From NCBI GenBank assembly GCA_033030425.1, contig JAUFSD010000005.1, positions 186,001 through 250,000 of the forward strand: DNA of 64,000 nucleotides, written 5' to 3'. Position 1 is the first letter of the stretch. Every line of letters begins with the position of its first letter. The DNA is from Verpa conica. Taxonomy: Eukaryota; Ascomycota; Pezizomycetes; Pezizales; Morchellaceae. Both the position numbers and the translations under genes were made by a program. The notes under the pieces were generated by a model that saw only the letters and a list, made by a program, of their open reading frames with translations, made no database searches and was not told where the DNA came from. Positions 14,254 through 64,000 of the stretch are shown in pieces.

Positions 14254-14308
14254 TCCAAATGAGGTAATGAATGAATGAATTAATCATAAGTACATCCAAA
14301 TGAGGTAA
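14254..14308. mobile_element. Mini-insertion copy 1: 27-nt insert between 14-bp direct repeats
   Basis: The 14-mer TCCAAATGAGGTAA occurs at 14254-14267 and again at 14295-14308, enclosing 27 bases whose core is GAATTAATCATAAGTACA. The same core recurs at 25.7 kb (inverted; 30 identical bases including edges) and at 63.5 kb (one C/T difference), each time between a different direct repeat. The direct repeats therefore look like target-site duplications. Confidence 0.7.
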
Positions 14309-16479
14309 AGTACAGAACAAATACGGTGATCTAATAGAGAAACCCTAAACGGGGCCCAAATAGAATAAATCAAGCAAATTATACAAACATACTCGGTATC
14401 TAACCTCTACCCCAAATCTTCTAAAACCCAAGCTTTTATAATCTGGCTAGGTCTATAGCTAAGACTTTATCCCGACCGCCAATCTATTACCCACAAGTGA
14501 ATTTGTCAAAACCTGTTTACTACTAGTAGACCCATTAGGTATTTGGGACCTCTTATCTAGCTAATAACCAGGAAATCACCCCGCCAATAATGTAGACCCA
14601 CAACCAGTGATATACACCTTCACTCACCGTTACCTAGATCCCATATCTAACCTTAAACTCACTCCACAGCCCAATTAGACACACAGTTAATAGCTCAGCC
14701 AGTAAACAGAAAACCGACGCTAGCCCCAACACCGCGTCAAGCCCAAAGTGGCTGAAACGCCCAAACCTTAGAGCACCACTACTTCCACAGATATGCCGAC
14801 CCCTTCACCGAGAGTGGGGTCCCCACCGTCATCTCGCCATTAAAAAAAAAAGTTTGTTTATGCATGCACCATAGGGGAACAGAACCCTCCTAGCACACTT
14901 TAGATGCTGTTCATCCAGATGATGCGCACGCACACACGCGCGAGCGCATCACAATCCAATGCGCGTTACATCATGTACTCTAGCGTACTCTACTCTAATC
15001 AATGCGCGGCATATCCCCCCCCTACCCTGCCCTACACCCCACTACCCTGTCTCTTCCCCTCCTCCCGCACACATATGCGGAATAGACCTTCGGTAATCTC
15101 TCGGCCACTGGATTCAGATCCGGACTGCCGAAACAAGCGAAAATACGAGTGATATATGGTGTCTTATCCCCGTGTAACCAGGGGGGGGGAAACTTGTGCG
15201 ACGTGTAAAAAAAATTTTGATATTGTAGTGTGAATCTACCACAGACCAACTGACAGACCAACCGCCCGACCGATAGTTATATAGTTATACTCTATAGGGG
15301 GTTATGGTCTCTGATGTGGTGGGAATATCAAGCTGTAATGATCCGCAGCGCGCGCAATGCACGAAGGTGATCGCAGCTCAGCTCTCGTCGCCGCGGACGT
15401 GTAGTTATTCGTCGAGCTGTAGGGGAGGTAGGGGAGGTAGGTAGTTAGGCCCTGGGCATGCATATCTCCCACAAAAATATTTCGCTCACAATATGCATCT
15501 TACATGAGACATCCGAAACAAAAAAATTTCTCTCCCCCCCCCCCCAGCGCACTCATCTCAAACAGAAGAGAGAGAGATAGAGAAGAGAAGAGAAGAGAAA
15601 GAAAGAAAGAAAAAAAAACTACCTGACCCACAAGGTGTTATCACATGTGTTACAGAGGAGGGGGGGGACCTAGGATTCATTCAATTCGAATAACCGGTTT
15701 ATCCTGCGACTAAGTTGTAGTTTTTTTTATGAAAGGATTGAGAGACAGGCGTATGTGGGTACCTACATAATACACCAGATGCGCAGACAACGGTATGTAC
15801 ATACCTAAAGAACGTTATCGAAGAGTCACTGCGGCTCTAGAACCCTCGCCCCTCGCCCCTCTCTTCACACCCTGCCCCTCCACCATACGTACCCCCCCCC
15901 TGGGTACACACGAAAGAAACAGCTTTTCTTTTTCTTTTCTTTTTTTCTGTCGTACTATACCTACTCTATATACAGGCAGGTACCTTGCTATAAGTTTTCT
16001 ATCTTTTTTTTGTTGGTTACATACGTGCGTAGGTACGCGGTACGTTGATTTAGCCGGATTACGCTGCATTGAATTCTGGGCAAAGTTTCTTTTCTTATTA
16101 ATCCTACAAAACTAGGCGAGAGGGAGAGGGGGAGAGGATTGGCTTATAGCAATAGGATACGAAAAAAATCAAGTGCCGGTGAAATTTTCTCACGATGTTT
16201 TTTCTTTTCTTTTCCCACCACCACTACCATCCCCCCCCCCGCCGGAGCATGTTTTTTCCTTTTCATTATGGTTCTCTCGGATGAATAAAAAAACACCCCC
16301 CCCCTTGGTACGAATATATAAAGACACACCATACCATACAACCAGGAAGGCTTGGCGGTGTAATCTCGGGTAGGAGTTTCTTGGTTACAGTACGTAGCTA
16401 GCTAGCTAGACTCTTCTCTTCAATGTTCTCGTTACACAACACTACATAGCATTACCGCAATTCGCGCTCAAGAGTACGG

Positions 16480-16500
16480 TTATTATTATTATTATTATTT
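16480..16500. repeat. TTA trinucleotide microsatellite
   Basis: About seven uninterrupted TTA/ATT units. Confidence 0.9.
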
Positions 16501-16650
16501 CAAAATAAAAAAAAGAATGACCGGTATCTGTAATTATAACTATAACTATATTTATATACAGTAGTTAATGTATGTACATGGTATGTACATACGGTAATCT
16601 CGCCGGCTGTCGTTTGTCCGATCTCATGTAGAGTACTTTAAATTGCGGAC

Positions 16651-16670
16651 CACACACACACACACACACA
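16651..16670. repeat. CA dinucleotide microsatellite
   Basis: Ten CA units followed by TATATA. Confidence 0.9.
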
Positions 16671-17780
16671 TATATAAACATATGCACAAACGCACGCACG
16701 CTGGTATTGATGCGATATCACATATCATCTCTCTATCTCTCAATTAATGGTACCTGACGCTCAGCGAGAATCATAATGTATAACATGAAGGGGAAAAAAG
16801 AAAAAAAAGTACAAAAGGAGAACGGAAAAAATAGTGCCGTAGTGGTAACACTCGCAGGTACAGCTGGAGTAGCTTCTCTTATGGAGGTTGCAGGGTGATC
16901 ATTGACAAGGTGGTGTGTTGACGGAAATGATCGTCTGGTGTTTCGTAATACAGCTGCACGTCAGTCAGTACTGCAGTTCCTTTATTGGATTCTCTAGAGG
17001 TTATAAGTGAAAGTCTATCGAGCGTAAAGAGCTATTTCCTAAATGGGTTTCCCGCAGTCTAGAGATCTAAGCATCGATCGCTGTACCGTGCAATGGGTTG
17101 TGCTGCCGAGTATTAATGGTCACAAATCGTCACTCGGACCTCATTCTGCACTTATGACGGTGGCGCACCCTGTTGAGAAAGGCTACGGGATTTCAAACGA
17201 GTCTACTATTTCTATAAATTCGATCTACAACACCAATGATATGTATCCTATGCTGTGTCCCCATTATAAGAAGATAATGATCATAGAGACTTGAAGATGC
17301 ATGACTAAGATGCCGTACGTTTAATAATTTATGTGATCCTATACAGCAATCAAACTAGAAAGGAAAAAGACCAAGGTTTAGGTTCGTCAGAAGAAAAAAC
17401 TCCAAGGGTATCAATAAACGAAGACGAAAACGAAAACGAAAATATAAGCCACACCAGAAAGGTATTAGTGGCATGGCAAGAGAGGACAAAACAGCCCTGA
17501 GGCAAAACATACTCCATGCACCCCATATGGTACTAATCAGGCAGCCCAAAATACCATGGAGCACCATAAATAAACACCTATGCATAAAGACAAACTTTTT
17601 TCTTACCGAACCCAGTGAAAAGGAAATAGGAAATTTTCACCCGCCCAGGAAGGAAAATAACAGAAACAGAGAAATGTGCGCAAAGCTAGTTGCTTTGCGC
17701 TATGATTATTTTGCCAAGAGGGCGGGGTTGAGTGCGTAACCTCCTTGCAGATTATGGGCAGTGCTTTGACCTATTGACGC

Positions 17781-19339
17781 TTATGGAAACCATTTCCTAA
17801 AGAGTTTTGTAGGAGTAGAGCTGCCAGAAGGTGAGGAATCTCTTCTTGTCAGGGAACCAACAGAGGACTTCCTTCCGATGTTCGAGAGTGAGTTCTTGAA
17901 GCTAGAGGAGCGTGGAGAGGATTTGCCTCCACAATCTGACTTCTTCCGTGGAGCTTTCTCTAATTCTTCAGAGTTCTGCGGGAGGTTAGTTATATGCAAA
18001 AGAGATATTAAACCGGATTAAGAGGCGTTTGAAGACTTACTACTCTCTCGAATTTATTTGAAGTTTGGCGCTCAAGCCTCCTGGCCTTCTCCTCTTGGCG
18101 CTTCTCTTCACGTAGTCTCTCAAGCTAAAGAAATTTATGTTAGAATTGTTTTAGAGAGAACCAGTAGGGGTGTAGTATTGCAACCGATGACTGTTTAGAG
18201 GGAGAGTAAACTTACTGGGCCCAAAATCTCTTCCTGCTCGTCGCTCCATTGTCTATTGGCTTTCTTCAACTTGTTTTCGAGTTTGGCCAAGTATTGTTCC
18301 TTCTCTTCCGTCCATTCTTCATCAAAAACGGCAACCTCAGCTACTTCATCCCAGGCTCCGTCTGGAGTAACACCGCCCGACCTGTTCCTCGATACTGGTA
18401 CGGATGATTGATTGTGGGTAGTATCCATCTATCAGCCAAAATTAGTATACTAGTCATAAACTCTGGTGTAACGGTACTAGAATAAAGGAAACAAACCTTG
18501 TAGTTGCCGCAACCCAGTCCTCCAGCCATCAACCTGACCCTTTCCTTCTCAACCTCGGCGCTCATCTGCTTCAACTGCTTCCTCTCCCTCTCAATAGCCT
18601 CACGCTCAGTGCGTAGCATTTTCTCGGCCAAATCCACTTTGTTGACCTTATCTTGTAATGTCTTGAGTAGACGGAAGTTGGCATTTGATAGATTTACTAA
18701 ATCGCCAAGATCACAAATAAGAGGGTGTCCTGACTGGAACCCATTCCCTTGGGGTTGGAGGTTTTGGCTGGATTTGGGGGTGGCATTATCGTCGGCTGAA
18801 GTGGGGAAGCTTGCTGGGGCTGTAATCACGGCTTCCGGTTTTAACGGGTGAATCGAATGGATGGACCCCCGACGAGAAGGCGCTGGTGACGGGCTCATAA
18901 GACGAATCTGGTTAAGATCCCGGCAATGTGTCTGTAGCTCATTGTTGGTATCTTGGAGGGTTCTCAACAAACTTGCGGTCGCAGAGCTGATGTCAGGGAC
19001 TACGACTGGGTCAAAGCTGGGGCCACCGGTTTGAAGTTTCAAATTTCCCTTTGTGGGTGTACTAGGGGCTTCCAAGGGGGTGAGTTCCCCATTTGTTGAG
19101 CCATCCGTTGGGGCATTTTTTGGCAATACACCAGCGTGATCGGATACAGTGACAGCCTCGCTACAGTGAGGACAGCAGGCAGTGGAAGCAGGATGGATTT
19201 TATCGCTAGCAGAGCAAACTGATAAAGTGAAAACCGACCTGATGGAGGTTAAGGAGCGGTTCCGGCCAAGGCAAGAAGTAGGCTCTACCGGGCTCGACAA
19301 CGGAGGAGTGGTAGCGGGAGTAATTGGGTCCATCATCAT
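17781..19339 (-). CDS. Coiled-coil protein of unknown function
   Basis: Four exons on the minus strand (19339-18497, 18428-18216, 18124-18041, 17975-17781) give 444 aa; all junctions are phase 0 with GTTTGT/GTAAGT donors and TAG/CAG acceptors. Seen: a serine/proline-rich N-terminus; a CPHC pair (residues about 59-62) that could be half of a zinc site; leucine-rich heptads around SLLRTLQDTNNELQ. A strong coiled coil of Arg/Glu/Lys runs across exons 1-3 (for example TEREAIERERKQLKQM). Exon 2 carries an acidic EEWTEEKEQYLAKLE helix. The C-terminus is basic and serine-rich (SSFKNSLSNIGRKSS). I do not recognise the family. The layout suggests a scaffold or cytoskeleton/nuclear-associated protein, which is inference only. 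Confidence 0.75.
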
Positions 19340-22300
19340 TTTATCGAAGTTGGGATAGTAATACTAGGTGAATCCGAGGTAAAGGCTGTGAAGATGAGGA
19401 CTACAATAAAATGATGTGAGGATGGCTCTTAATTTAGTGATCCGAGAGAATGATGAAGAAGCAATTTAGAGCGGGGAGCTTTGAAGATATAGCTGAGTTG
19501 GGACCAGGTGGGATTGGATGGATTAAAAGGATGACGGTGCTGATTGAGCACAATTACAACCACACTCGCAGTTGAAATAGGTAACCACTCGGATGATGCA
19601 AGGGGACCGTAAGGGAAATAGAATGGGCGACAGTTGGAAAACACGATGCAGCAGATAATGCAGACAACTGCAGATGAGACCGAGAGACTACAGGGAAGCT
19701 CGGAGACGGAGTTAGAATGGAGACACGAGTGAGAGGATCGTCAGCTGGTACTTATACAACAGCCGGGGATGGTGTTGGTTGAAGCACGAGAAAAAAAAAA
19801 GCTGGGCGAGAGAGCTCCCGGTCCGTCTGGAGCGGGATGCATCCTGCAGCAAAGCTTGGTATAGCACCAGCCATTGGTTGTCCCCGTTGGTGGCACAAAC
19901 ATCGTCAGGCTGTCTGGGGAAAGCCACCGGTGTCGTCGTTTGCAGTCTGAGTATGTCCTGTCCTGTTCAGCATATCGGTACCGACAAGTTGGGAGCTGCG
20001 ACATCATACCACAACCGTTCCCCTCCCCCCCCCCACCTCCGTTGAGTCCTCAACCATTTTCTGCCGCACTGATAGGATATGTAATTCGTATTTACCTACG
20101 TGGAGTTTAGACTATCCCCGACTTCACTTACTCCCGGCTAGGGGTACGCAAACGCTACTACCCAGTCATGCCGAGAGTAAAGCGGTCATCTGCACGTGGG
20201 GGCGGGAGTATCACCATGACAAAGTGAGCCTTTCCAGAAGTCGAGTTTGAAACATCTGGCAGAGCCTCCCGTTCTTAGAACGTGGGTCCAAGGTATAGTA
20301 CATGTGGGAACTTGGGTTAAAACGGCCTGCAGATGGTAAGGGGATAATGTATGTCGCTGGGCACTGGCCAAGAGAGCCACGTCGAGGGGTGGGAGTGCCC
20401 CATGGTGCCCTCTCTGGGTCATGGAAGCGACTCACGATACATATCACCGGGAAGTGTCAAACGGTGCTTTAACCGAACTACAATGACGAGCTCAGAGGTT
20501 AGCATTCGTTGGTTGACTTAGGTTGTCCTCGGCAGCTTGCCGACCTTGCAGTTTGCTTTGTGCAAGGTCTTGGCCGCTCTTTTCCCCGATTCCTCGCTTT
20601 CTTCGATCTGTGAATATCGTCGGCTTTCGGCTTCTTCCTCTCCTTTCCCTTCCTTTCATTCTTTTTTTTTGTGTAAAATGCGGGGTCTTTGGAGAGTCGA
20701 TGCAGCTTCTAGCGACATAATACTATCTGTCATCTTTGGCATGCTCAATGGGCTTTAGGAGCCTACCGCCGTTGTAAGCCGATCCGCAGCTTCTGTCGTT
20801 GTAATCAGAGTGATGTCGTTGTCGCATGGGCCGCTTCGGGGATTTTTCTCGGTCATGGCGTTCCTCTTATCGGCCCGCGCTTTGCGCGCTGTGGCTGGTC
20901 CGGCTAATGTGGCTTTGACGAGTGATGAACTATGAATATATTCACACGATATCCCGCCTGTACCTCCTAAACAAGAGTGCAAAACTATGTATGTATACTT
21001 CCTGTCTTTCACCCCCACTTGAGGCGTTATACATAGGGAATTGACTTGCCAACGTGTACAGATCCCGGTTTCTCTTCCCTAGCTGAGGAAGCGTATGCTA
21101 AACACGTCAGGCCGACGTTTCCCCACATATATCTACAACAGCCTTGGCAAAGTCACGATGTAATATTTTGATGCTTAGTACTAGGACATGGTGTACTTTG
21201 GGAATGGTTTTGGCCTCAATATAAATCTTTGGTACCGTATGCATGATTCATTTCAGAGTGTCAACCCTGGGCGTGCAGAAAATTCCGTGGTCACGAGCAC
21301 CAACCCCGCAATATCCACCGATCTGGATCTGGATCTCGATCTGAACTGCCCCAGGGCACAGCAAGCTTGCAAAATCATCCCGCGAACGGAATACGCGATT
21401 TTCGAAACGACTGTCAACTAATTAAAGATGCAACAATTTTTTCCCTGTCCAGGCTGGTGGAAAATATGGGGAACCGACATTTCCGGGGAGGGAAGCGGAG
21501 CTCCTATCCTAGTAAACTTAATTTGCTTGTTCGGTTTTTTCTGGAGAAGGCGCTTGTAGGGATTGTAGAGATAGGTCTATTTGTGCTCAGGGGATCAGAG
21601 GTTTCGATCTTGGTGATACGAAAGATGTTTCCTTCTCGTCCATCTAGAGGTCTGGGCAAATGCAGGAAACTAACGATGATGCTCAATGTTGTCATAATTT
21701 TATTAAAGGAAGGTCTGAAGATTCTACTTATTCAAACTGCCGAGTACCATCTGGTAACATCTTCAAGATCAGCACAATCTTATTCGAGAACCCTGTTTGT
21801 TCACAGGAACCAGGCTGATATCCAACTGAACCAAATGCCCCTCCGATCACGGGAAACATCAAATTTAAGTTACTAAACAGACAACCCCATCCACTATTTT
21901 CTTTTTGCATTCCTTTAGGTTAGGGCTGGCCAGTAAGGGTTTGGAGCGTGGGGGGATTCTTTACTATGTGGGGTTACATGGTAGTCGGCGATGGAGGTTC
22001 TGTTAGCGGTATTGTTTCTCCCCCACCACCAATGCTCTTGAAAGCGTGTGCTAAAAAAGTGATATAACTGGGACACTCGCCTGGATTATAAACATCAATG
22101 AGAAATCCGATCCTAGAAGCTTAGGGAAATCGAATAAAAGGCCTATCCACCCGGATGACAGGCCTCCCAGACAACAAACTGTCTGATATTTCAGTATTTC
22201 CCCGATTTGAGTTCATTTGGTCTACGGAGAGAGAATAATCTATGACAGGGTTGAAACATTTGTACCTTTCTTATGATCGGCAACCGTTTTCTCTGGGCTG

Positions 22301-25641: not shown

Positions 25642-25696
25642 TAAGCTAAATAATCATGTACTTATGATTAATTCATTCATTCATTTGTAAGCTAAA
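25642..25696. mobile_element. Mini-insertion copy 2: 37-nt insert between 9-bp direct repeats
   Basis: TAAGCTAAA at 25642-25650 is repeated at 25688-25696. The 37 bases between include ATGTACTTATGATTAATTC followed by ATTC repeats, the inverted equivalent of the insert at 14.3 kb. TAATCAT / ATGATTA inside it can form a small hairpin. Confidence 0.65.
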
Positions 25697-28600
25697 CAAA
25701 AAAATAAAAAAGAGGGGACGATGCCATGTTTCGAGTGATATATCATGTCTGAGAACTTAAGAGTAATGTATTAAACACATAAATTCTTTCTAGCAGGGCT
25801 GAATATGGTTAAAGACATTGACCTAAGATCTTAAAGGGATTTAATATAGTATAATTAAATGCTCGTATAAATGTTTAACCACGTTCAGTTGTAACCATCA
25901 CGCGATATGCAAGGAGGCATGATTAACCGAGGGCCACGCATAGAAACCTTGGCAGCATAGTGAAGTTTGTTCTAGAAAGAGTTCATGAAGAGCTTTATTC
26001 TGCCCGAGGTTTTACAAACCGATTTACTAAAATTTAGTATATGTGCATTAAGCCGCTCCAAAGCAATGACTACATATAAACTTACCATAGACCCATGGAT
26101 CAGCCAGCAAGTGTGCAAGACGTAACAGAATATCTAATATGATTGTTTAACTTAGCACCTATAGCTCCCTTTGTATAATATAGTTAAAGATCTCTTATAA
26201 ACTATAAAAAGGTGTTCTATATATAGATCTATCTTGATTTCATCACGATAGAAGCCACTAGAAAGAAGCTGTCTTCTCGTAAAATATCTCGCAAACGCAC
26301 ATATACGTGCACATAGGTATTTAAATAGGGCTGCAAGAAAAGGTATCAAAATGAGAGTGGATGAGAGGTTTCTAGAGATAGAACCCCACCCCGAAGAAAT
26401 ATAGATAACAGGAATAGAACTTTGAGCCTTATTTCTATAGGATTCTATAGCTATATCAACCTTAAAGATATTCCGATCTATGGGTAGCTCTTCCAAAATA
26501 CACCACTGATTTCCCCCAATTAATTGATTTCCCCAAGCTCACTCACAATTGGTACAGTCCGTCGGCAAATTCCACCGAAAGCACGCCATACCTCACCCAC
26601 ATAGTATACACAGGCTGAGCATGACGTACCAAGAGCCATATTCTGGACTCTAGGCCAAGACCACCAACTCGGGGTCTTCTCCCGGGGAAAACCCCTCAGG
26701 TCCTAGAGATAAGGACTATATAGGACAATCTCTCCGACCAAGCCATTGTAATCTACGTATCAATTTGCCAAGTCAGCCCCACACCTCCCTCTAAGAATCT
26801 TTCAAAAATCTCAATTGAGTACACATATCATTGTTATAACTATCAGTAGTATATTAAATAAAGACATCTTTTTCCGCGCGCGAGTCCGAGGCACATGTCG
26901 GATCGCACGGAAGCCTACAGAGTCTTTAAGAAAGAAGAAAAAGACCTGATATTTGCGAAATATGAGCATCCGTCCGGAATAAACCTAGTGTCAGCCTTGT
27001 CCAACAAGGCATCTGCCCCGAAACTTGGTTTTTTCTTTCTTTCTTTTCTGCATACAACTTAAGCGGATAGCTACGAACCCGGCCCCGGTAGAGAATGTTT
27101 ATAAATAGAAAGAGAGAGAGAGAGAAAAAAAGAATTTTCGAGATCTTTGAGTGTTAATTACTTTCAGGAATGTATTTTCCATTCCAACGAGTGCTGTATA
27201 TATCGTAAATTTGTGGACGTTTCTTTTTACTCCCTTGGGGTTAATCTTGGCGATCTAATCTCTAATTACCCACTACTGGGGGATTTGGGAATCATCGTAC
27301 AACACATATATACCCTGCTTATCGTAGCACTATCTCGAGGATATATGGGCATTATTGTAGCAGCAGAACAGTGGCGAATTAGATATTCATTGGATAAAGC
27401 GAAACCCTTACTAGGAGTATTTTAGCGTCAGACGGCGACCGCCTGCTACTAGCTCTGATGCGTTAGTTACACAAATTCGCCTAAGGACTTGCCCAGCCAT
27501 GCCATAGGATACACCAAAGCGATGTAACGGGGCTGTTACCAACATATGGACTAGGCGCAGCAAGAGTGTGTATACTTTGTCCCTAATAAGATAAGTCGAG
27601 CCATTCTTTATACCCTTCACATTACTACTTTAGGAATTGACTTTTGAGGCCCCTGGTATGATATTTGATTATATTCCAAGACCATATTTGTCACGGTGTA
27701 GCTTTAGGCGTAATTGTATCTCTTAGTAGGCTATGTACATGTGCTTATTCTCCATACCATTGACTCATTCAAGGTGCGGAAGTAACCAGTTTCTAGTGAG
27801 AAACGTGGATAAATATCTTTCTAGCAGGCATTTGAGTTCCGATTTATTAAATTTTATATTCATGTCGCCGCAAATAAAAACTGCCAGGTCATGCCAGCTG
27901 TGTATGTAGCTAGCTACCCGATTCCAGTCACACGATTCTTGTGACATGATTGTTCTCGCCAGTTACAACCCTGCGTTGTGATAGTCATGCAGATGATTAT
28001 GCGCAGAGGATATCCCCAAACTATATTGGACCTCCGTAGTTTTGTCACTCCTCGGGGTTGGTTATCTAGTGTAAGTAAGCTCCGTTAGTAGAGGCTCTGG
28101 ATTGGACGTTGGTCTCAACGGCAAGAGCTGCGTCCGGACATATACCCCGATTTGGTTTAATTCCCCGAAGAAGTGAGCCTAGAAGATTATCCACTTGTCG
28201 TGTATGCTTTCAATTTGGGAGACCTCGGCCAGGGTGACCTTGCAGCGGAGTGAGGTATCTAGTAGGACGGGAAACATCAGTGATTGGGGGGAGGGGGGAT
28301 ACAAATGGCTATGCTGATGTCACGCTATTCATCAGAGGCGTCAAAATAAATATTCACCGTAAAAAAAAAAAATGTCCTTGAATCTGAATGTAGAGTCTTC
28401 CCCCCCTCGGCCGGTCCGCTCAGATTGTCTCGGAATTAAACAATCTGAGACACTGATTTCCCTCTCAAAATTGACACACAGGATACTTGGTAGTCTGTGC
28501 ACCTATATTGCGTAAGACTGACCGTGTACCGTGTTTCGAACTTTATTCTAACGTCTTGCCATTACTGTGGCCAATACCACACTGCGATCGTCGATAATTT

Positions 28601-30453
28601 TGACGCTGTTTTGCACTTTGATATATCACTAGTTAGATGCGAGTGAGAATCCATGAGATGTATGCGTCCAACTAGAGCTCGACTGATAATTAACCTACCT
28701 ACTAATCTATTTACCCTGTACGGTTGCGCTGAGGGGGGGAAACGCATGTCTACGGGGACGCCGATATGTCTCAGCCGGCACGCGTTGAGCCCAACCCCAG
28801 CGCGTAAGTTAAGCGCGAGTGATAAACCCACAGTTGGGCTTAACCTAATCTACAAACATATCGAAACGAGTTTACAACATGGCTTGAGGCTTTATAATGC
28901 AGCCGCTCTCAATTAAGCGATAACAAGCGAGAAGGGGGGGGTTCTTCCTGGAAAGGATTTGGGCGTCATATTATTTTTGTGTGGGAATTCTATTATTAAT
29001 CCCCACTATTATTCAAACCTACACCACGGCCACTCATGTGTCTGTATCATGTTTTATTTTGTTGACATAATCTGTACTCTTCATGCCACGTGTGTGCATG
29101 AATTGCAACCCATGAAAAGCCACCAAAAAAAATTGTTCTGCATACCGGAAGGCTGCGGAGTTTCGAGCACCCATAAGCCAACAGGAGCCAGCAGATAATA
29201 TACTACAAACGATAAAAAAAAAAGGATTTCCCCCCCGCTGTCAGCTGGCTGTTGAAGAAAGATCCCCTAAGACCAGGCCTAGTAATGTCACTGTTAGTCT
29301 TGGTTAGGGATAGACACTTACCACGATCTGTCAAATAATTGCTATTTGCACTTTTAGGACGGTGCCTATATAATGGCGTCTTATTAAATTTCAATCAACC
29401 ACAATAAAATTATGAGAGCTCGCACTCGCTCCCACCCCTTTCTCCCCATGCCGACTAGTGTGGATTATTCTTTTTAATAAAAAAATTCATGAAATTATAC
29501 CCTGGAGCAGTAAACTCAGGCTACCTACCCACAGCACAGGGGACGGACGTATGTCTGCCGGACGCCGCAACCCACTGCAGCGGATACTTACTTGATCTCT
29601 AAGTGCTTTCTGTGAGTGGATCGCTGTATTCTTGATTTCGGCTGCGGGCCCGGAGGCTGTCTTTGAAGTAAACCGGGCGTTGTATATGTACTCATCTACG
29701 TACATAAGTACTCCATGAGCGTTGATACTGCTACTATTATCATATATTATCGGGTACGTCCGCATTAGAAATGATTTAGTGAGAAAGGAATGCAAGAAAC
29801 TGCACACGCCCCCTGCCAGTGCATTATAGATAGGGAAGAGAGGGAGGAAAAGATTAAAACCTGGTTGGAAACAGAGTTGGGTGAAGCGGTTATATATATA
29901 TCTGCTGAAGGTAATTTCAGAAATCGGTTATTAATGTGGGAATCTGGACTCGATTATCATATGCACACATCCCCCTCCAGCTGCGGGCTTGGTAAATTTA
30001 GTTCAGCCCCACGTACGGCCACCCCTCGTCGGTATGAGCTTTGGAAATCCTGACAAACAGCTGGGAATTCCAACACCCAGGCAATTGAAACCATGAACCG
30101 ACTAGCCGGAGTGATCAGCTGTGCTGCTGCCTCGTGTATAGCCCTACGACATTCCTACCGGTGAGCCGCCCGCGTAGGATTAATCATGTTTGCCCACCAC
30201 GTACAGCTTTAGAGTTCTCACTGTTTCATTTGCGGTGCAGTGAAATACTATTTATTGGCCACCATTCAGCCCCAAATCCGTTCAGTTTTAAGACAGAATT
30301 CTCCGACACATTATATGAGACAGTTGTCCCCTCTTTTTTCTTTTTTTATTAAATATTTATTCTCTCCCTTAAAAAAGAAAACCACATTTTTATCTACCAA
30401 AACTAGGGTTTCTGAATATCTCCCCCCCCCTCTCTCCTCCTAGCGAAAGAAAG

Positions 30454-32311: not shown

Positions 32312-34188
32312 TGGGACTTTTTTTTATTTGTCTCTTATTTGTCTCTTATTTTTTTTGGTAGATGAGATCTTTGGCATACTTTTTTCCCCCGTTTCTCTTT
32401 TTTTAAGGCGTTGTTGGGTTTAAACTGGACACGGTCTCTTGTATATTTTTTATTTACGTACGTTCTATCGATTCCCTTATGAAGAGAAAACAAAAAAATC
32501 TACATATATTTATGAACCACCTTGTCAGACACAAGAGAAGAAAGAGAAAAAAAACCCGATTTCTAGAATTTAATGGCTAATACCACGTTGCCAACTGACG
32601 TAAATGGCCGAGGGGGGTGGTACAGTGGGCCGGATGCACGCGGCTAATGCACACGTTCCATTCCAACCGATATCCCAGGATGTTGATGGGAGCGCCGGAT
32701 CCGAGTCGCGGGGGAGTGGAGGGTGGGGAGGAAGGGGAAGGGAAGGGGAGGAAGAGGAAGGGGGTAGTAGTACAATGATAAGATCGACCGGGATATCGGT
32801 ACTGTGTAATTTGTATAGTAGTCGATTGAAACCTAACCCTGACCTTTATATCATTATTTATTGTTACTTATTCACACCTCATCACTCGAGTGGTGGGGGG
32901 GTGGTTGATTACATATGCAAACTTTTTTTTTTTTTTTGCGTGTTGTGCAGCTCTTGATTGGTGGGATTGAAGATGAGTGTTTTATTCATTAATTACATGA
33001 ACCTTTCGGTGAAGATGAGTGTTAATAGTACTAAAACTACTGTGTAGGGTTTGGTGTACGGGGTACTCTATCGTGAACACGCTAGGTGAAGCGATAGTAT
33101 GGGTTTTTTTATATATATATCATAGTAGAGGGTGTTTCTAGATAACCGTCGTTTCTAAACACTATATAGTAGTTTATCTGTTTGGTTCGGTGTATTAGAG
33201 GATGTAGCTCATATGGCGAACTTTGATATTGTATACAAAACAGCGAGTAGGAAATGTCCCGTGAAATAAATCTCCCCTCCCCCCCCTCTCGTGCAGGGTA
33301 GTCTTTATCCCCACTATGTCAAACCGTGCGTTCTAGGTCTGATCAGCAACTCTAAAGCCAGAGACTAAGACGCTTCACTTACGATAAAGGTCATTTCAGA
33401 AGAGGCTAGAGTATGTTCCACCAGCTACACTCAGTCTAGAAATAAGTACTCAACACTAGCTCCCAACAGCCGTCTGTGAAGAGAGAGCTAGAGCTGGAGT
33501 TGATACTAAGTGCACACTCAATTTTAACAACTATACACAAAACAATCAGTAGACCTTAATATACACCACAATGCCAAAGGATACGAATACCGTTATTTAC
33601 CGAGGCGAAAATCATCTAGCCAAGGTTATTATATACAACCAAGCCTCTACTCTACCCTCCCCAAAAAAAAAGAGAAAGAATTTACATCAATGTCTACCAT
33701 AACCACTCCAAAAGGTAGATTTTTTTAAAAATGGGAGACTTATTTCTAGAGTCCCCCCCCCCCAAAAAAAGGTTGATGCTCCCCCCCCCCTTCCCTGCTC
33801 CTCCCCCCTACCAATAAAAAACCGGTACTTTCTTTTGGCACTAGTACGCTGATCGTACATGAATTTATCAACATCCTTGGCAACAGCTACTATATACATG
33901 TAGCCAAAATGAGGCTCAAATTTGTGTTACCCAATCCCGTGAGCTGTTCTGACCCAGTATCGTGGGCCCGGGAAAAGCAGGGAGGAGTTCGGGGGGGTGG
34001 AGGGGGGTCGAGGGGAAGGGTATTTTTTGTGTGTATCCAATCACACCCAAAAGACACTTCCCAACCCTGGAAAAAGACCCTGCAGATCCAAAATAAAAAT
34101 AAAAATATATATAAAAAAAAAGATGAAGAGAAGAAGAAAAAAAAAAACACTATATCTAGAGGGGAAACCCCCCCCGATTCATTCAATA
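32312..34188. other. Intergenic region between P450 and ankyrin genes
   Basis: Contains the P450 3' region (with a tandem TTATTTGTCTC pair near 32325-32350), a G-rich tract around 32700-32765, a direct-repeat-flanked insertion at 33.0 kb (separate entry) and long poly-C runs at 33753-33763 and 33781-33790. No credible coding region. Confidence 0.55.
32968..33023. mobile_element. Possible fourth mini-insertion: 28-nt insert between 14-bp direct repeats
   Basis: TGAAGATGAGTGTT at 32968-32981 is repeated exactly at 33010-33023. The 28 bases between contain ATTCATTAATTACATGA, which shares CATGTA/ATTAAT/ATTC elements with the three clear copies but is not an obvious homologue. Size and duplication length match the others. 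Confidence 0.5.
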
Positions 34189-37068: not shown

Positions 37069-37132
37069 AAAAATAAAGTCTGTCATGTGGGTAAATCACG
37101 TTTCGGTTTACCCACACGATAGACTTTATTTT
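37069..37132. repeat. 64-bp foldback with 26-bp arms downstream of EDE1
   Basis: The left arm, 37069-37094 (AAAATAAAGTCT...GTGGGTAAA), and right arm, 37107-37132, are inverted repeats with two differences in 26 bases, separated by a 12-base loop. It lies 101 bases beyond the EDE1 stop codon, so it may form a strong hairpin in the 3' UTR. It could be a miniature foldback transposon or a 3'-end element. Confidence 0.75.
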
Positions 37133-54940: not shown

Positions 54941-55159
54941 TATTCTTGTAGGTACATAATGATCAGTTTTGATCAATTGGTGTTGGCGATTCTTCACACT
55001 TTGTCACTCGTTGTATGCTCTTCCAAAAGATTTAGTATTCTCCCCCTCTAGAAATACAAAGAATAAGAGTAATGATAAGAAAGTACCCTGATCAGGTAAA
55101 AATTAGCTAGGTTAACGAAAAATAGAATTGATTTCGCCTGCAATTTACTCGTATAAGCT

Positions 55160-55746
55160 TTAACCGAAATCCTTAGTTAGAAAACATCCATTGCGTATAT
55201 ATATATATATGCCAACTAGGGAAGAACTCAACTCGTCATCATCTAGCAGAACAACCCCATCTTCATCAACGGTTTCTGTTTTCACAATCATTCGTGGTCT
55301 ATGTGCTGAATCTCCGTTTTCTAGCTTAACTCTTTTCTGTTCACTACCTTCCTCGTCATCTCGGTCAGATTTATCGCGATCCGTAAACAACCGCTTTCCC
55401 TGGCCTCGCTTGGATGGTGTTTTTGATATTCCGGCCGGCCGGGTGAGTCTATTCCTTTGAGGAGTGTTGGGGATAGAAGCAGAACCAGGAAGACCTTCCT
55501 TTCGGAGTTTTTGATATTGTTGCCTTGATACATTAGTGGTGATCACAATTTCCGATAGAAATTCAATAGAAGTACAAATTTCGAATTAAAGGGTAAATAC
55601 CTTACTGCTTCTTGCGTAAAACCCGCTCCCATTTTTTCAGCGACTTCATTCCATGGAGGAAGTCTTTTATGAGTTCTCGGAGGAACGAGAAGCTCAATTA
55701 TTGCTAGTAAAAGTCTCGAGCGATCTTGGTCCGTCCATGTAGGCAT
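55160..55746 (-). CDS. Myb/SANT-like small nuclear protein (array member 7)
   Basis: Two exons (55746-55601, 55523-55160), 169 aa; intron GTATTT...CAAG, phase 2. This is the most canonical domain of the array: MPTWTDQDRSRLLLAIIELL, then PWNEVAEKMGAGFTQEAV|RQQYQKLRKEG, with Trp at both hallmark positions of a SANT/Myb repeat. The intron lies inside helix 3, unlike all others, so this is a separate lineage. The linker is basic, and SUMO-like VKLEN and VKTET sites follow. The C-terminus is translated from a TA microsatellite (GIYIYI), so the last about 15 residues may be recent. Confidence 0.75.
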
Positions 55747-56672: not shown

Positions 56673-56982
56673 ATGCTTCTGTACTCCCTGGTCAAGCAAC
56701 TGGACACTAAGTCGGTAAACATAAACATTCCCTCTAGCTATGAATATATACAAACGTTTTCCCCCAGTTGCTAACTTTTCCACAACAAAATCCATTTTCT
56801 CGTCTTAGATAAATTGGGAAATAATTACAGAAGAAAGCGGCATAACACAAAATGCAGCCCGGATACGTTTACTCCGGCTGAGACAGTCGATAGAGTCCAA
56901 GTCCTCGCCAGGTATAAATACTACTAGTGATGCGAAGGGGAAAGCTCTCCCCTATCCCAAAATCAAAGAAAAGAAAGGCTAG
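56673..56982 (+). CDS. Short Myb/SANT-like protein (array member 8)
   Basis: Two exons (56673-56714, 56809-56982), 71 aa; intron GTAAAC...GCTAAC...TTAG, phase 0 at the family position (S|I). The domain is MLLYSLVKQLDTKS, then INWEIITEESGITQNAAR and a basic helix RLLRLRQSIE. The tail is short and lysine-rich. There is no in-frame ATG upstream before a stop at 56568-56570. The N-terminus is therefore about 6-8 residues shorter than its paralogues; a CTAAC plus CAG pair at 56607-56633 leaves room for an upstream exon. The gene may be truncated. Confidence 0.6.
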
Positions 56983-57422
56983 CGTAGTACTTGAGAAGGA
57001 TGATTAAAGTCCCAAACAGTATATGTACGGGAGGACTGACTTCACCACTACGTAGATATCCAGCTTACTTGGGTCTTGGCAGTTTATATTATTACGATTC
57101 CGGAAACGGTGGGACTACATGGTACAACCAGCGGGCGTACAAAAGAATACGTACTCACTTCCCATACCTCTACCAAACGTATCTCCTCCTTATCAGTGTT
57201 ATATCTAATTAAATTTTTCACTTTGAGCACCGAGCCGAAGGACATCACGTGACGGGTCTAGAGCTACGCTAGACACCCCCACTACGTACCCTACAGCTAA
57301 TAAAAGTATAAATAAAAGTGCTTGTTTATAGGAACTTACAACTTATTTCTTCTCATTCGTCTCCAGCTAGCTCTCTACTACGGAAGGTATATACTCGGTC
57401 CCCCAGGAACTAACTGTTTACA
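56983..57422. other. Spacer after array gene 8
   Basis: About 440 bases, no recognised feature. A 73-aa frame at 56991-57212 has no domain. Confidence 0.5.
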
Positions 57423-57686
57423 TTAACCTTGTTTCTTTACCCTAAAAGTATTTAGCCCTTGTGTTGGCATTCCTTTGCTCTTCATCTTATCCTCCCAGTC
57501 TTTTTGGCCCTCCTGTATCGTATCTTTCTTAGATTCATCTGGGGTGTCTGTGGGTTCTGTTCCTTTCCCTTTATCTCCGGACGCTAGCTATAGTCAATAC
57601 CTATAGAAGATACATGACTGACTTATACACTTACCTTGACCATGGTCCCCATTCAACGTCGGGTTAAGAAGCTTCCCTATTTCCAT
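57423..57686 (-). CDS. Small orphan protein, 70 aa, not Myb-like
   Basis: Two exons (57686-57635, 57583-57423). The intron has a strong GTAAGT donor; the frame is kept only with the acceptor GCTAG at 57584-57585 (a TATAG four bases earlier gives a stop). The product starts MEIGKLLNPTLNGDHGQ and continues with a charged, lysine/aspartate-rich stretch (DESKKDTIQEGQKDWEDKMK). The opening resembles the short N-terminal motif of several fungal regulators, but I recognise no domain. Support is limited to splice signals and protein-like composition. Confidence 0.4.
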
Positions 57687-58649
57687 CTTCGTTCTCTACG
57701 GGTGGATAGTTTAGAGCCTAATGTTATAGAACTAATTCCTTTTAGTTTTTCAAGAAAAAAAAAACCATAGAAGGTGTTTCCGGAGGGGGGGGATAGTAGA
57801 ACATACCGGTGAAGTAGGGTAGATCAGGAGTTCTGGAACCCTTTGAGACTATGGGACGGGAGGTATTCATGTCAATTATATATCTACTGCGCTTAAGCAA
57901 AGCTCGTAAAAGTAACATCTGCAGCAATGTGATCTTTGGTACAGAAACTTGATATCTAGGCCCCAGGTGCGGCTGGATAGAGCAAACGGAAAATGTATCC
58001 TCTTCGAGTACCGGTTGATGGCATAGCTAACCAGGCCGGCTTATTCCGATGTATGTGAATAGCTTGTAATTATATTTCTAAACAAGTGATATATCTACTA
58101 CTATGGCTAACAGATGTTTGGTAATATGTAACCGTAGAATTGTATATATACATATGGCAATGTAGTAAATCTCTAGTGATAAATCAATACGTCTACAAGT
58201 TTGAACTACAGTATTCACGGCGTCGATGGCTACCTGTGGAGAGTTCCGTACGTGACTATGAGAGGGCTTTTAATCGGATATATACATATTGAGCTCAGAT
58301 CTTGATACTAGAAATGCCATCTAGAATTTGTACGACAATATTACGGAAGGCATTGAACCCGATGGGCATCTAGATTCTTATAGGACCGCTACTGGAAGCA
58401 CATTCATTCCCTATAAGGTGGACTATACATCAAGTAATGCATATATAGCTAGCAGATTTACAACAAGACTGAAGTTCCAAAAGTGATATGTAGTAATAAT
58501 AAAAATATATAGAAAAAAAAAAAAAAACTTAAGGCAACTAATCTCAATTTATACCCTATTCAAAAAATATCCATGTCTACATTCCAAAGAAACTAGATCA
58601 GAAAAGCTCATGTACAAGGTTTTTTTTGAATCTCCCCCCCCAAACTCCC
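57687..58649. other. Spacer before array gene 9
   Basis: AT-rich 1-kb spacer, with the orphan gene's upstream sequence at the left and a poly-A tract near 58511-58527 and poly-C near 58634-58640 at the right. No gene. Confidence 0.5.
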
Positions 58650-59276
58650 TCATGCTAGTGCTCTGCCTCCAAGCCCATCAAAGCTGTAAAATATATCCGG
58701 ATTATGAGCATCAAATGTAATCTCTTCTGGCTCCTCCTTGATTCCTGTCTTGGCTACTCCAGACTTTCTCACAGATCTTGTGGGGCTTTCCGACCTGTTG
58801 TCCTCCTGTGCGACCCGTCGTGCTTTGGCTGTCCTGGGAGTGCTGGCAACAGACCCTGCGCCCTTTCGCTTCCGAGGAGTCGAAGGCACTGAACCGCCGG
58901 CTGAGGCCTTGAGCGCGTTTTTGATCCTCAATATGCGTTCACTGATTGCACGGGCTGTAGGAACCTCGCGGCCATCCTTCGCTACGCTACTGTTAGCTGA
59001 ACTTCTCGGGTAGAGAGTAATGTGAAGAAGATGCAGACGTACGCCATGCTTCCCTACACAAGATGTTAGTTACTACTTTTGTAAGAATAAGGATCTAGAA
59101 CGAGTTTTGGGGGGGGTCGTACCGTATTTTCTCAGCTTTAATGGAAACATCATGGGTTTCAATAAGCTTAACGAAAAGCTGCGTTACATTAGTATCGGGC
59201 GAGAACAATAATCACAAGAGAGAGAGAGAGAGGGTGGGGGACATACAAGTTGGTCGTTATCTGCTGTCCACTTCAT
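58650..59276 (-). CDS. Myb/SANT-like small nuclear protein with 11-nt microexon (array member 9)
   Basis: Four exons (59276-59247, 59178-59123, 59053-59043, 58981-58650), 142 aa. The domain: W3 in MKWTADNDQL| LFVKLIETHDVSIKAEKI, then REAWPKDGREVPTARAISER and ILRIKNAL. Exon 3 is only 11 bases and supplies EAW. It is needed because joining exons 2 and 4 directly shifts the frame; it is flanked by TGTAG and GTACGT consensus sites. The first intron is phase 0 before helix 1, as in members 6 and 12. The linker is basic (STPRKRKGAG) and the tail acidic, with a SUMO-like IKEEPEE site. Confidence 0.68.
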
Positions 59277-60091
59277 TTTGGCTTTAAGAATGAAAATCAG
59301 GAGTTACAAAGGAGGTTCAGGTGGAGGTAACGGATTCATAAATGGGACTACAGGAAAAGCCCTTATGTTCCGGGTGGGCGTCGTACTCAAAAGAAATTTG
59401 ACCAACTGAGGACTGACCGCTAGTACCCCTCTTCAGCTCCTCTCCCATCTTCCCTGAGGGAGCAAGCTTTGTACACATATCTGGTGGGGGAGGGGGGTTC
59501 CTGAAACTTCCAATCTATAACTGTTGGTCGTTGAGATGGTTGCATAACTGGTGTAACATTTGCTATATAACCTTGGCTGTTCACTGACCCAAATACTGGG
59601 AAGTCTCAGCTCGGAGGTTTTGCATTCGGTTATGCACGCGGGGGGGGTCTTTTCTTTCCCTTTTCTTTTTTTTTTATATGGTTCTTTTGAGTGGCTGCGC
59701 CGCTGATCGCTGGTCCCCCTGTACATTGTACAAGTTTCTATGTACTGTCGCGTCCCGCAACCAAGGAACCAATGCTATCACGCACAGACTCAAAGGTAGC
59801 TCTTATCCCGCCAGTTATTCTTATAAAGAGATTATCAACAACAATGACATCAGAGGTACAAAGCCCAACCACCCCATCAAATCCTAAAGATGTCACTTTG
59901 TAATTTACAACAAACCGGGTATTAAAGGCTAGAGATGGGCCCCATGTAATGCTACAAGTACCGTTAAATCTAGTATATACAGTGTATACGCACCTCAATA
60001 CGTACGTACGTTACTCTCATCCCCCACACCCCCCAATTAAATGAAATAGGTCCTAATAAACCCATCTGGTAGAGATCCTACCACTATTAAG
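59277..60091. other. Spacer between divergent array genes 9 and 10
   Basis: Array genes 9 (minus) and 10 (plus) diverge from here; both promoters should lie in this 0.8 kb. No coding region; frames at 59.7-60.0 kb are antisense shadows of each other. Confidence 0.5.
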
Positions 60092-60388
60092 ATGAAGTGG
60101 GATTCCACCGCCGAAGCCCGTCTGCTTGCTGTGATTGTTCAAGACCTCACTAGCCGCGGGGTAAAATTCGAGTATGCCGCCATTGCCGAAGCCTTTGGCC
60201 AAGGTGTAACCGAAGGGGCGATTATAAACAGAATCTTTCTCCTTCGTAATAAATCAGACCTTGACGCGGATGGGGGTGGTACCAACCTCCCGAAAACACC
60301 GTCCACCCCGGCTGCAAAACGAAGGAAACAGAAAGTCATGGGGAGTGGGGTAAGCAAGCGAAAGCCAAAGCGTGAGCAAGCGTTATAG
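60092..60388 (+). CDS. Intronless Myb/SANT-like small nuclear protein (array member 10)
   Basis: Single exon, 98 aa. The domain fills residues 3-52: W3 in MKWDSTAEARLLAVIVQDL, then VKFEYAAIAEAFGQGVTEGA and a third helix IINRIFLLRNK. The tail is basic (STPAAKRRKQK, SKRKPKREQ) with no acidic part. It starts MKW like array member 9 but lacks every family intron, so it may be a retrocopy or have lost its introns. A GA repeat lies 47 bases past the stop. Confidence 0.75.
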   Translation: MKWDSTAEARLLAVIVQDLTSRGVKFEYAAIAEAFGQGVTEGAIINRIFLLRNKSDLDADGGGTNLPKTPSTPAAKRRKQKVMGSGVSKRKPKREQAL

Positions 60389-61054
60389 TTATTGGATAAA
60401 GGCATTTACCGTCCTTTCATGGATTACATGTACCGAGAGAGAGAGAGAGAGAGAGAGAGATAAAGAGAGCAAGGGTTGGCTTCATGATATAGCACTCGGC
60501 TTTTCTAATATATTCAGCATGTGGCCGTTGTGTTTGCTTCTTCTTCTTGTCCCCCCCATGTGCATATTAGGCGGTCAATTCGGAAAAACTTCCGTGAGTC
60601 GTTCCATGTAACCTACGATTATTATTTATTTTATTTTGGAAGGATGTACCGGTGTCTGCATACAGTGCATTTAGTTGGCTATCAGCTGAATCCACCAGAT
60701 GGGGGAAACGAATACAGGTCACAAATGTCATGTCCCGGTTGTCTTAGGTCCACTATAATTTTAAATTACAATAAGTGTTCACAGAATTTGTAAAAGCCAT
60801 TTTCTACCAGCCTCCTCCCACTCAACCGTACGTCCGCCGGTCCTTACATACTGCACAGACCTCGTTGAGCATAACAGAATGGCGTGGTAGGTCCCGCAAA
60901 GTTTCCATAAATCAAGAGGAAATTCGTCCCGTCTAGCTTTTGCAATCACTCTCCGTGTTGGAAAAAACCCAAGCATTGGAATTTTTACCTTCTATACCCC
61001 GTTACTTTCCGTAAGAACCACACAAACCTCTTTCACAAATACACTCATCTCAGT
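60389..61054. other. Spacer between array genes 10 and 11
   Basis: Carries a GA microsatellite (60435-60460) and the promoter of array gene 11. No gene recognised. Confidence 0.5.
60435..60460. repeat. GA dinucleotide microsatellite
   Basis: Thirteen uninterrupted GA units in the 3' flank of array gene 10. Confidence 0.9.
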
Positions 61055-61533
61055 ATGACAAAAATCAACTGGAATGCGGAAAAGTACCAGCGTCTGCTTG
61101 CCGCCACAATGGCTGCCCATCCCGAGCTCAAATTAGTATGTTTGTCTAGTCTACACATGCCGACTCCCAGGTAAAAAAAGCTCTAGGTATGGGGACTAAC
61201 ATTACACAGAACTATAACATTATAGCCGCAATGTTTGGCGAAGGAGCTACATACGACAGCATCGAGACCCGTTACAGAATCGTCAAGAAGGAAGCCAAAA
61301 AACTTCGAGAAGAAATAACAAACGGCATCCGGCCAGCAGTTGCTCCGCCAACTCCTCGGAAACGCAGGATGAACGCTGGTATAAGCACTCCTAAAAAAGT
61401 AACAAAACGAAAGCCGGTCACTCCAAAGAAGACACCAATGAAACAGGAGTCGGGCCCTGAGGACGAAGACGAGGAGGAAGAGGAGCTGGGGAATGTGTGG
61501 AGCGGCGTCAGTGGGGGGGATTACAGCGAGTAG
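61055..61533 (+). CDS. Myb/SANT-like small nuclear protein (array member 11)
   Basis: Two exons (61055-61135, 61210-61533), 134 aa; intron GTATGT...ACACAG, phase 0. The domain: W6 in MTKINWNAEKYQRLLAATMA, then LKL|NYNIIAAMFGEGATYDSI and ETRYRIVKKEAKKL. The intron is one codon downstream of the position used by members 1-5 and 8. The linker is basic with repeated TPxK units (PTPRKRR, TPKKVTKRK, TPKKTPMK), and the tail is strongly acidic (EDEDEEEEE). DNA or chromatin binding is inferred. Confidence 0.77.
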
Positions 61534-62083
61534 AAGTCCGAGACATGATCTTGTTTTGCCTTATCAATGTGTATCTGTAGGCTGGTAAAACAAACGTTTT
61601 AAGAAAGGCCGTTTCTTTTCCCTTTCCTTTTCTACTTTTATCACGTGTATATGCATGCATTTGTTTGTTTGATATTCTACTTCCATCGATGTGTAACACC
61701 CAGGGTGCTTTGGGCGGGACCGTACCCGTGAATCTGGGACTATCCGATGTTGGTGGCTTTCTGCAGCCCGGTTTGATATCGCCGGCTCTTTCTGGAAGAA
61801 CAAGAGAGAGGAGGGACGAAAGCAAACATTAGAACCCCATTAGATCCTGGCTTTTACTTTCTCCACCCAATCCAAATATCGTCCCCCCCTTCCCCCTCTC
61901 TTCACGATCTATTCTATTCCCTGCAGGTGTAGCCAGCCCCCCGTCTTTAGTAATTTCTTGAATCAATATTTTTTTTTTTTTCTTTTACTTTAACGGTCTC
62001 GATCTCTTTCAACCCACTTCAAAAACTCTGGTCACTTTTATTTTTATCCCTCCATTCATCTATCTTATTGATTCCACTCAAAT
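61534..62083. other. Spacer before array gene 12
   Basis: 3' region of array gene 11 and a pyrimidine-rich promoter of array gene 12, with a poly-T run near 61970-61981. No gene. Confidence 0.5.
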
Positions 62084-63004
62084 ATGCCGAAAGTTGTGCG
62101 TGAATAATCCATCATCTTCTCTTTGCTCCGCGGCCGTATAGAGATAGGCTAACAAATGAACCGTCTCTCTCTCTACTCTCACCCAGGTTTGGACCTCTGA
62201 GAACGATCGCAAGGTATTTATTGGGTTTTTAATTTACTTGTTATTTAATTAGTTTTTTTCTTTCTTTCTTTTTTTTTTTTAATTTAAATTTTTTTTTCTT
62301 TCTTTCTTTCTTTCATTCCTTAATTCGGTCTTTTACTAAAAAAAAAGGGAACATTCTACACAGCTTCTCATTCGCCTTATTGAACGTTCTGCGAAATCAT
62401 ACGATACTGTAGAATTATGCAAGATCTTCCCAGGTATTCCACCAACCTCTTTCAATCTTTTTTTTTTTTTTAAAAAAAAAACGAAAAAAAAACAAAAAAA
62501 GAAAGAAACCCAATACTAACACAGTCAATCCTCTGTTTGAAAAAACAAAACAAAAAAGGAGCGACTCCGAAAGCGATCGAAGAAAGGATAGCGAAACTCA
62601 AACGCGAAGCTAAAGCTATGGATCATCCAAAACCACGTAATCACCCAAAGGGCAAAAGCGGGCCGAAGAAACGAGTAGCCACTGAAGCGTCTGTGGGTTC
62701 TTCCGAGACTAAGAGGACTAGGACGACGACGACGACGAAAGTCACACAGCCGTCGTCGTCGTCTTTGGGTAATAAGGCGGTGGGAGGAGGGGACGAATCA
62801 TCTCAATCGGAAAATTCACTTTATGAACCCTTGGTTTCGGCTGAGCTGGCGAGTGTGAAGCGTGAACTTGAGCTGGATTCTGGGTCTGAAGGTGGGCTTG
62901 GGGTTGGTGGGGATATAGGCTCGGAGTTTGGCTCGGAAGATGAGGATACTGATGATCAGAGTCATGCTTTGGTTAAGTCGGAGATGGGGGTTGGGGAGTT
63001 ATAG
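62084..63004 (+). CDS. Myb/SANT-like small nuclear protein (array member 12)
   Basis: Four exons (62084-62095, 62187-62213, 62364-62433, 62559-63004), 184 aa. Exons 1 and 2 are only 12 and 27 bases. Splicing gives MPKV|VWTSENDRK|LLIRLIERSAKSYDT..., then FPG|ATPKAIEERIAKLKREA: the same W, the same intron positions and phases (0 and 1) and the same TPKAI motif as member 6. The introns are bloated with poly-T/poly-A and CTTT repeats; the last acceptor (AAAAAAG at 62552-62558) is A-rich and atypical, with a branch point at ATACTAAC about 40 bases upstream. The linker is basic (KSGPKKR) and the acidic tail has SUMO-like VKREL and VKSEM sites. Confidence 0.72.
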
Positions 63005-64000
63005 TGTGTTTGAGGTGTACTGGCTTTGTGGGCATTTTTTTTATATTATTCTATGAGGTCTGTGATTGTTATAGGTAATGATTTGTCCTGGCTAGCTAGC
63101 TTCTTAAGGGGGAGGTTATTATCATCTTTTTGGTTATCTGTGGAGTTTACTGCTTGATGCGCTGAAAAGGGAATATTCACTTATAATCTCTCTAAGCTAC
63201 GAATTTGATTATATCAAGGCTTTAGATCTGGGAGAAGTACCTGGCTCTAAGAGTGGTCCCATAGCCGTTCTCACTCGCAAGCCCTAGATAGAATTACTGA
63301 CTCTATGACCAATTAATCATGACCCACCATCATTGTCTCGCTCATGCGTTTGAAGAGACTTTATGAGTATCATTGTAGATACGCTATGGATTGAAGATCA
63401 GCTCGTAGAGTTAGATCATATAATATCACTCGATATAGACCTGCCGTCACTTTTTTAGAGAATTCCGAATGAATTAATTATAAGTACATGGATTTTAGAG
63501 AATTCTATATCACTTAAGGAACTTAGTACTAGCAAAAAACAATGAACAAAAAGGCTCATATGCCCTGACTCTGTTGTAGAGCGGTAGACCCGAGAAACTG
63601 ATTTATTCATAGTCATTAAGTTTAGATCCCCGTCAGTATTCCAGTAGCACCTTCACTGATTTTGTTCATGTAAGTATATAATTAATTATACTCATAGCCT
63701 AATTATTCAAGCAGAGTACCCTATAGGAGTCAAATATGAGAAATGGGCTTCCTATCCGGCCCCTTGCCCAAGCTTTGTAATTACTAGCTGAATCACGGCA
63801 TTTATAGCGTTAGTGGAAACACTTGTATAGCAGTCGATGAACAAGATAGCAACTAGAGTACATGACGTAGATCCCACGAGAATGTTAGTGTCCGTATACA
63901 AAGGTAATCCCAGACAAAGTTCTAAAAAGCTTGGGACATGACCAGTAGCCGTATTTTGGAGTAAAAGAGGGGAAATGACAAGCAAACCTCATGCTTCCCG
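63005..64000. other. AT-rich end of window, no gene
   Basis: TA-rich DNA with stops in all frames; contains mini-insertion copy 3 (separate entry). No telomere repeat. Confidence 0.5.
63453..63505. mobile_element. Mini-insertion copy 3: 27-nt insert between 13-bp direct repeats
   Basis: TTTTAGAGAATTC at 63453-63465 is repeated at 63493-63505. The 27 bases between contain GAATTAATTATAAGTACAT, identical to the insert core at 14.3 and 25.7 kb except for one C-to-T change. The flanking repeat is unrelated to those of the other two copies. Confidence 0.7.

Follow-up and report, generated by a model that had tools for sequence, protein, structure and literature searches.

The three inserts of about 30 nt in the 64,000-nucleotide stretch of the Verpa conica genome analyzed here (contig JAUFSD010000005.1, positions 186,001 to 250,000; referred to as the window) are the 3' ends of a long interspersed nuclear element (LINE) of the apurinic/apyrimidinic endonuclease (APE) type. 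Across the genome, a large minority of such insertions lie about 27 bp from a dispersed bipartite motif, with the repeat tail of the insert towards the motif. The short inserts are probably extremely 5'-truncated LINE 3' ends generated by target-primed reverse transcription (TPRT), which would often end at a 3' hairpin, while a motif-bound host protein would dock the LINE complex. We also lean towards the broader view that a host protein occupying thousands of dispersed bipartite sites steers the LINE in both distance (about 27 bp) and direction, in which case the scars of about 30 bases would record its binding sites.

The inserts share a 19-nt core, which occurs in the window at 14277 (+), 25656 (-), and 63471 (+, one mismatch), compared with a mean of 0.02 occurrences expected by chance; three were reached in 0 of 100 shuffles. 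The first-pass annotation of this DNA had described a shared insert at 14.3, 25.7, and 63.5 kb, and inserts of 28, 34, and 27 nt are indeed present there (Table 1). Its account of flanking direct repeats is confirmed with small corrections: the repeats at 14.3 and 63.5 kb are perfect over 13 bp, the claimed 14th base (T) being common to the insert end, and the perfect 9-bp repeat at 25.7 kb exists within a full repeat of 12 bp with one mismatch. The same heptamer, CGAGTGA, which that annotation did not mention, lies on the tail side of all three inserts. The motif-tail distance at 25.7 kb is the largest among the 18 motif-bearing, duplication-supported copies described below.

Table 1. LINE 3'-end inserts, target duplications, and target motifs in the window (position 1 is the first letter of the window)
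Feature	Position	Strand	Basis or remark
Bipartite target motif CGAGTGATGGCACATGA, tail side	14217..14233	-	Heptamer centre to tail junction 37.5 bp
Target duplication adjoining tail, motif side	14255..14267	.	13 bp, perfect
LINE 3'-end insert, 28 nt	14268..14295	- (sense strand)	Core match and flanking repeats
Target duplication, far copy	14296..14308	.	13 bp, perfect
Target duplication, far copy	25642..25653	.	12 bp, 1 mismatch
LINE 3'-end insert, 34 nt	25654..25687	+ (sense strand)	Core match and flanking repeats
Target duplication, tail-side copy	25688..25699	.	12 bp, 1 mismatch
Target motif variant CGAGTGATATATCATGT, tail side	25732..25748	+	Heptamer centre to tail junction 47.5 bp
Bipartite target motif CGAGTGATATTATATGA, tail side	63416..63432	-	Heptamer centre to tail junction 36.5 bp
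Target duplication, tail-side copy	63453..63465	.	13 bp, perfect
LINE 3'-end insert, 27 nt, one core mismatch	63466..63492	- (sense strand)	Core match and flanking repeats
Target duplication, far copy	63493..63505	.	13 bp, perfect
CGAGTGA-N6-RTGA in window	3759-3775, 6674-6690, 11419-11435, 14217-14233, 17120-17136		Motif match
CGAGTGA-N6-RTGA in window, continued	20919-20935, 28640-28656, 32872-32888, 54994-55010, 63416-63432		Motif match

In sense orientation, the copies are fixed at the 3' end, which reads ATGTACTTATGATTAATTC with ATTC repeats after it, and variable at the 5' end, as is characteristic of LINEs; the LINE terminus is composed of a predicted stem-loop, TTATGATTA, and (ATTC)n. 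The genome-wide abundance anticipated by the first-pass annotation was evident in the genome searched (45.8 Mb in 25 contigs), where the 19-mer with up to three mismatches had 986 matches (493 + 493), compared with 23 (11 + 12) for the reversed pattern. A 30-mer reaching further upstream was detected at 51 places, compared with none for its reversed control. Longer copies extend into a conserved 3' region and a T-rich stretch, and several reach coding sequence of the type LTLEDILYPEDPKNWAWGALVWREFKRKR. The peptide encoded there forms the C-terminal part of a 1334-amino-acid (aa) open frame, present at two places (C6 and C8), which also encodes an APE endonuclease, a reverse transcriptase (RT), and RNase H. 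The genome contains 45 matches to this peptide, 10 of which have the LINE 3' end 164 to 247 bp downstream in the correct orientation (9 recognized by the 30-mer and 1 by the exact core), so that the linkage comes from 10 of the 45 places and not from one intact copy. Because longer copies enter coding sequence, the peptide joins them to the 1334-aa frame, and the 3' end lies downstream at these 10 places, the inserts are LINE 3' ends. This agrees with the earlier suggestion of extremely 5'-truncated non-LTR ends with an ATTC tail and supplies their LINE source, and it renders the other suggestion, an undescribed mini-element, superfluous. The RNase H is compatible with the Tad1/I clade and does not decide it; the LINE may be Tad1/I-like.

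The fetched loci yielded 81 distinct copies after overlapping loci with identical context were collapsed (the pairs include L008/L036, L018/L056, L025/L039, L032/L097, and L042/L096). This collapsing applies to the repeat scoring, the 7-mer ranking, and the matrix scan, and overlapping loci were kept in the open-frame count. Flanking repeats scored at least 10 in 41 of the 81 copies, compared with about 2 of 241 mis-paired flanks (a control number back-calculated from fractions), and at least 12 in 23 true pairs, compared with none of the mis-paired ones. The target duplications, supported in 50 copies, are 10 to 18 bp long and vary in both length and sequence, as do those of LINEs. At the nick sites of duplication-supported copies, no strong sequence preference was seen.

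The heptamer CGAGTGA is the top-ranking 7-mer in the tail-side flanks (24 of 81 copies; expected, 1.84), compared with 1 of 82 flanks on the other side; the second-ranked 7-mer is a word from the tail. In the 50 duplication-supported copies, the heptamer lies no more than 50 bp from the tail junction in 18, and the opposite flank, examined over 100 bp, has it in none. A matrix built from 31 insert-free sites (score 11) likewise marked 24 of 81 tail-side flanks and none of the 82 opposite flanks, with 2.3% of 3000 random stretches passing; at a lax threshold, 31 of 81 tail-side flanks and 7.2% of random stretches passed. Genome-wide, 316 sites match an exact 16-mer at the tail. A tail-side heptamer accompanies them at 57 places for one motif orientation and at 33 for the opposite one, compared with none for the reversed controls. 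Since one copy was listed twice and one appeared in both lists, these places correspond to 88 distinct copies (28%).

The median distance from the heptamer centre to the tail junction is 27.5 bp for one motif orientation and 26.5 bp for the other. It falls between 19 and 36 bp in 82 of the 88 copies, in a search limited to gaps of 8 to 38 bases and with the tail junction assigned by a simple rule. Whichever orientation the motif has, the tail points towards it in the motif-linked copies found. A ten-base periodicity of the distances, hinted at in the 18 copies, was gone in the 88 (strongest value, 0.15) and was rejected. At C12:837325-837331, a single heptamer is flanked by two inserts, both with their tails towards it (region C12:837278-837377). 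Second cores also lie right beside the first insert in L022 (near 1501-1560) and in L109 (near its first copy), and insertion seems to have been repeated at these three spots.

An extended motif derived from 52 sites with CGAGTGAT reads CGAGTGAT-N3-4-CATGA-like, with weak conservation beyond it, so the motif does not belong to a long repeat. Its two RTGA halves are offset by ten bases, about one helical turn. The form CGAGTGA-N6-ATGA has 3366 matches in the genome, compared with 22 for the reversed control, so that motif sites far outnumber motif-adjacent inserts and most of them carry no insert. Open frames of at least 150 aa cover 21% of the bases in the longer loci and the window, and they contain 4 of 48 relaxed motif sites (p = 0.02) and 1 of 64 core copies. 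Judged from its sequence distribution, the motif resembles a binding site of an abundant host DNA-binding protein, and its more than 3000 sites make it look like a major one in this fungus. It is a candidate general host binding site irrespective of its link to the LINE. Among the matches listed from open-licence papers, none reports the motif or a LINE linked to such a dispersed motif.

The points at which the copies end were determined in 55 copies (the first 30 exact-core places, 20 further exact-core places, and the window, with neighbouring copies), of which 40 with a supported duplication (repeat score of at least 8) were kept. The 15 left out comprise 14 with a repeat score below 8 and L102, which has a score of 8 and ends at 67 nt. 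The 5' end lies 0 to 9 nt upstream of the core in 34 of the 40, including 18 at 2 or 3 nt; five others end at 18 to 23 nt (one of them, the second copy in L109, where tail repeats pair, is doubtful), and one ends at 40 nt. The 35-nt consensus alone is predicted to fold into two stacked stems (-11.0 kcal/mol), with the RNA reading GAGUAC...AGCC-UUUG-GGCU...GUACUU, followed by AUGAUUA and (AUUC)n. The peak at 2 to 3 nt coincides with the foot of the upper stem (AGCC-UUUG-GGCU), and the class at 18 to 23 nt falls close to the hairpin's 5' foot. In 37 of 39 copies (L093 and L094 were left out), which had been chosen for similarity, paired cells amount to 94% in the lower stem and 96% in the upper stem, compared with at most 59% when the pairing is slid. 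From the end points, we infer that reverse transcription stops at the LINE 3' hairpin. Upstream GTGGGG, viewed sequence by sequence, might also pair with CTCCAT, which would form a possible pseudoknot.

An APE-type LINE such as this one would insert by TPRT, in which the tail is the first part to join the primer strand. Reverse transcription would begin at the tail and often end at the foot of the upper stem, giving mostly inserts of about 30 nt. A host DNA-binding protein on the motif would dock the endonuclease/RT complex of the LINE, and because the tail faces the motif either way, the motif-bound factor would hold the primer side of the nick. Docking of this kind would account for the distance, the direction, and the indifference to motif orientation. 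These features bear as well on two other explanations of the link. The protein of the LINE might bind the motif directly and cut at a distance with no host factor; R2 and similar site-specific LINEs bind their own targets, and the direction and distance relative to the motif are fixed. We regard this as rather unlikely, since most of the 3366 motif sites are free of inserts, the motif is mostly outside long open frames, and a spread of 19 to 36 bp in either orientation accords more readily with a flexible tether than with a rigid domain. An improbable explanation is that the motif merely marks open chromatin preferred by the LINE. The scarcity of motif sites and inserts inside long open frames relative to their share of the bases would fit it, but it leaves unexplained both the direction of the tail (the opposite flank has the heptamer in 0 of 50 copies) and the narrow distance.

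As for the inserts themselves, the main rival to a stop at the hairpin is that each of them is a complete copy of a short or protected RNA, consisting of hairpin and tail and cut at fixed points. This remains doubtful in our judgment, yet it would explain the sharp end at 2 to 3 nt (18 of 40), the minor class near the 5' foot of the hairpin, even with one of its five members in doubt, and the bases off consensus at some junctions; against it, longer copies show that the template can reach well past the hairpin. An independent mini-element or short interspersed nuclear element (SINE) is very improbable: the size of about 30 nt is alike in most duplication-supported copies, but this 3' end also occurs on longer copies that continue into LINE coding sequence, and the window has no Rfam match. 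The SINE assignment, which implies an RNA polymerase III (Pol III) promoter of its own and no coding sequence, was rejected on the same two grounds. A Pol III gene as the landmark was rejected as well. No tRNA gene and no Rfam match was found in the window, and tRNA prediction (bacterial code) yielded a single tRNA-Ile in 60 insert loci (L034:1784-1870). With the other 59 loci and the window devoid of predicted tRNA and no Rfam match in the window, the insertions do not represent known Pol III-type targeting. The tRNA-Ile sits past the insert, a few hundred bases from the LINE copy.

Several observations weigh against the docking of a hairpin-truncated LINE by a motif-bound protein. Neither of the 1334-aa frames has the 30-mer (up to three mismatches) within 1.5 kb downstream, for which reason they may belong to a sister subfamily, and the copies read are all less than full length. 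About 72% of the exact tail sites have no exact heptamer in the tested range, which may reflect partial docking, decayed sites, or a motif looser than tested. On the far side, the genome-wide scan found the heptamer at 0 places and covered one motif orientation only. At least six of the copies dropped from the end-point sample carry the hairpin sequence (L008, L009, L025, and L095, and in part L100 and the second copy in L094), so that the share of short copies is below 34 of 40. The copies were selected by the full 19-mer, and 5' ends within it therefore escape the sample. Exact matches fall from 316 to 104 when seven more bases are demanded, through decay, shorter inserts, or both; L053:1390 is a possible shorter insert. 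Covariation in the hairpin is slight, and the 61-nt 3' region prefers another fold (z-score, -0.38; 64 of 200 shuffles fold as well). Finally, the host factor itself is putative.

The Verpa LINE resembles fungal APE-type LINEs with RNase H, presumably of the Tad1/I-like clade, in that a single frame encodes its APE endonuclease, RT, and RNase H. It differs from fungal APE-type LINEs in that its duplication-supported copies mostly end about 30 nt from the 3' end and in that insertion is tied to a motif. To our knowledge, the known cases of LINE docking involve Pol III genes or site-specific repeats. Copies of the Magnaporthe LINE MGL are likewise 5'-truncated, with duplications of 10 to 20 bp (PMC2104539). 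The closest parallel in behaviour is Dictyostelium TRE5, which inserts 40 to 54 bp upstream of tRNA genes in the opposite orientation and whose ORF1 protein interacts with TFIIIB (PMC5911963). Both elements keep a fixed distance and a single direction relative to a landmark, but the landmark in Verpa is a dispersed motif and not a Pol III gene. The stringent-type LINEs UnaL2, ZfL2-1, and ZfL2-2 have a stem-loop followed by short repeats in the 3' tail, as predicted for the Verpa LINE, and ZfL2 proteins require their own stem-loop (PMC4176376). In these LINEs the stem-loop is a recognition signal, whereas the predicted stem-loop of the Verpa LINE, which similarly adjoins the repeat tail, is also where most copies end. 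Target choice by LINEs that lack a strict cutting sequence is an open question, for which a dispersed motif linked to distance and direction would offer a tractable system, because the protein could be captured with the motif as bait. In addition, the short inserts provide a genomic record of reverse transcription end points on a LINE 3' structure.

Some variation was observed among the copies. An (ATC)n tail after ATGTACTTATGAATAATC replaces (ATTC)n in L035, L043, L044, and L055, forming a LINE subfamily in which three of the four copies have the heptamer on the tail side. One 30-mer variant is common to eight places (L053, L060, and six more), and the two that were read share upstream sequence, so the eight may constitute a younger subfamily. 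The window also contains genes for Nmr-A-like, sedolisin, P450, ankyrin, and EH-domain proteins, with no visible bearing on the inserts. Among the best 120 of 2334 matches, the sedolisin-type protease is 74% identical to a homolog from Morchella sextelata and 63% identical to one from Choiromyces venosus, with another match at 77%; these similarities place the host probably in the Pezizales. The RT matches include a separate LINE-type group whose open frames measure 1089 aa in 8 matches and 1094 aa in 4, and these uniform frame lengths suggest recent activity.

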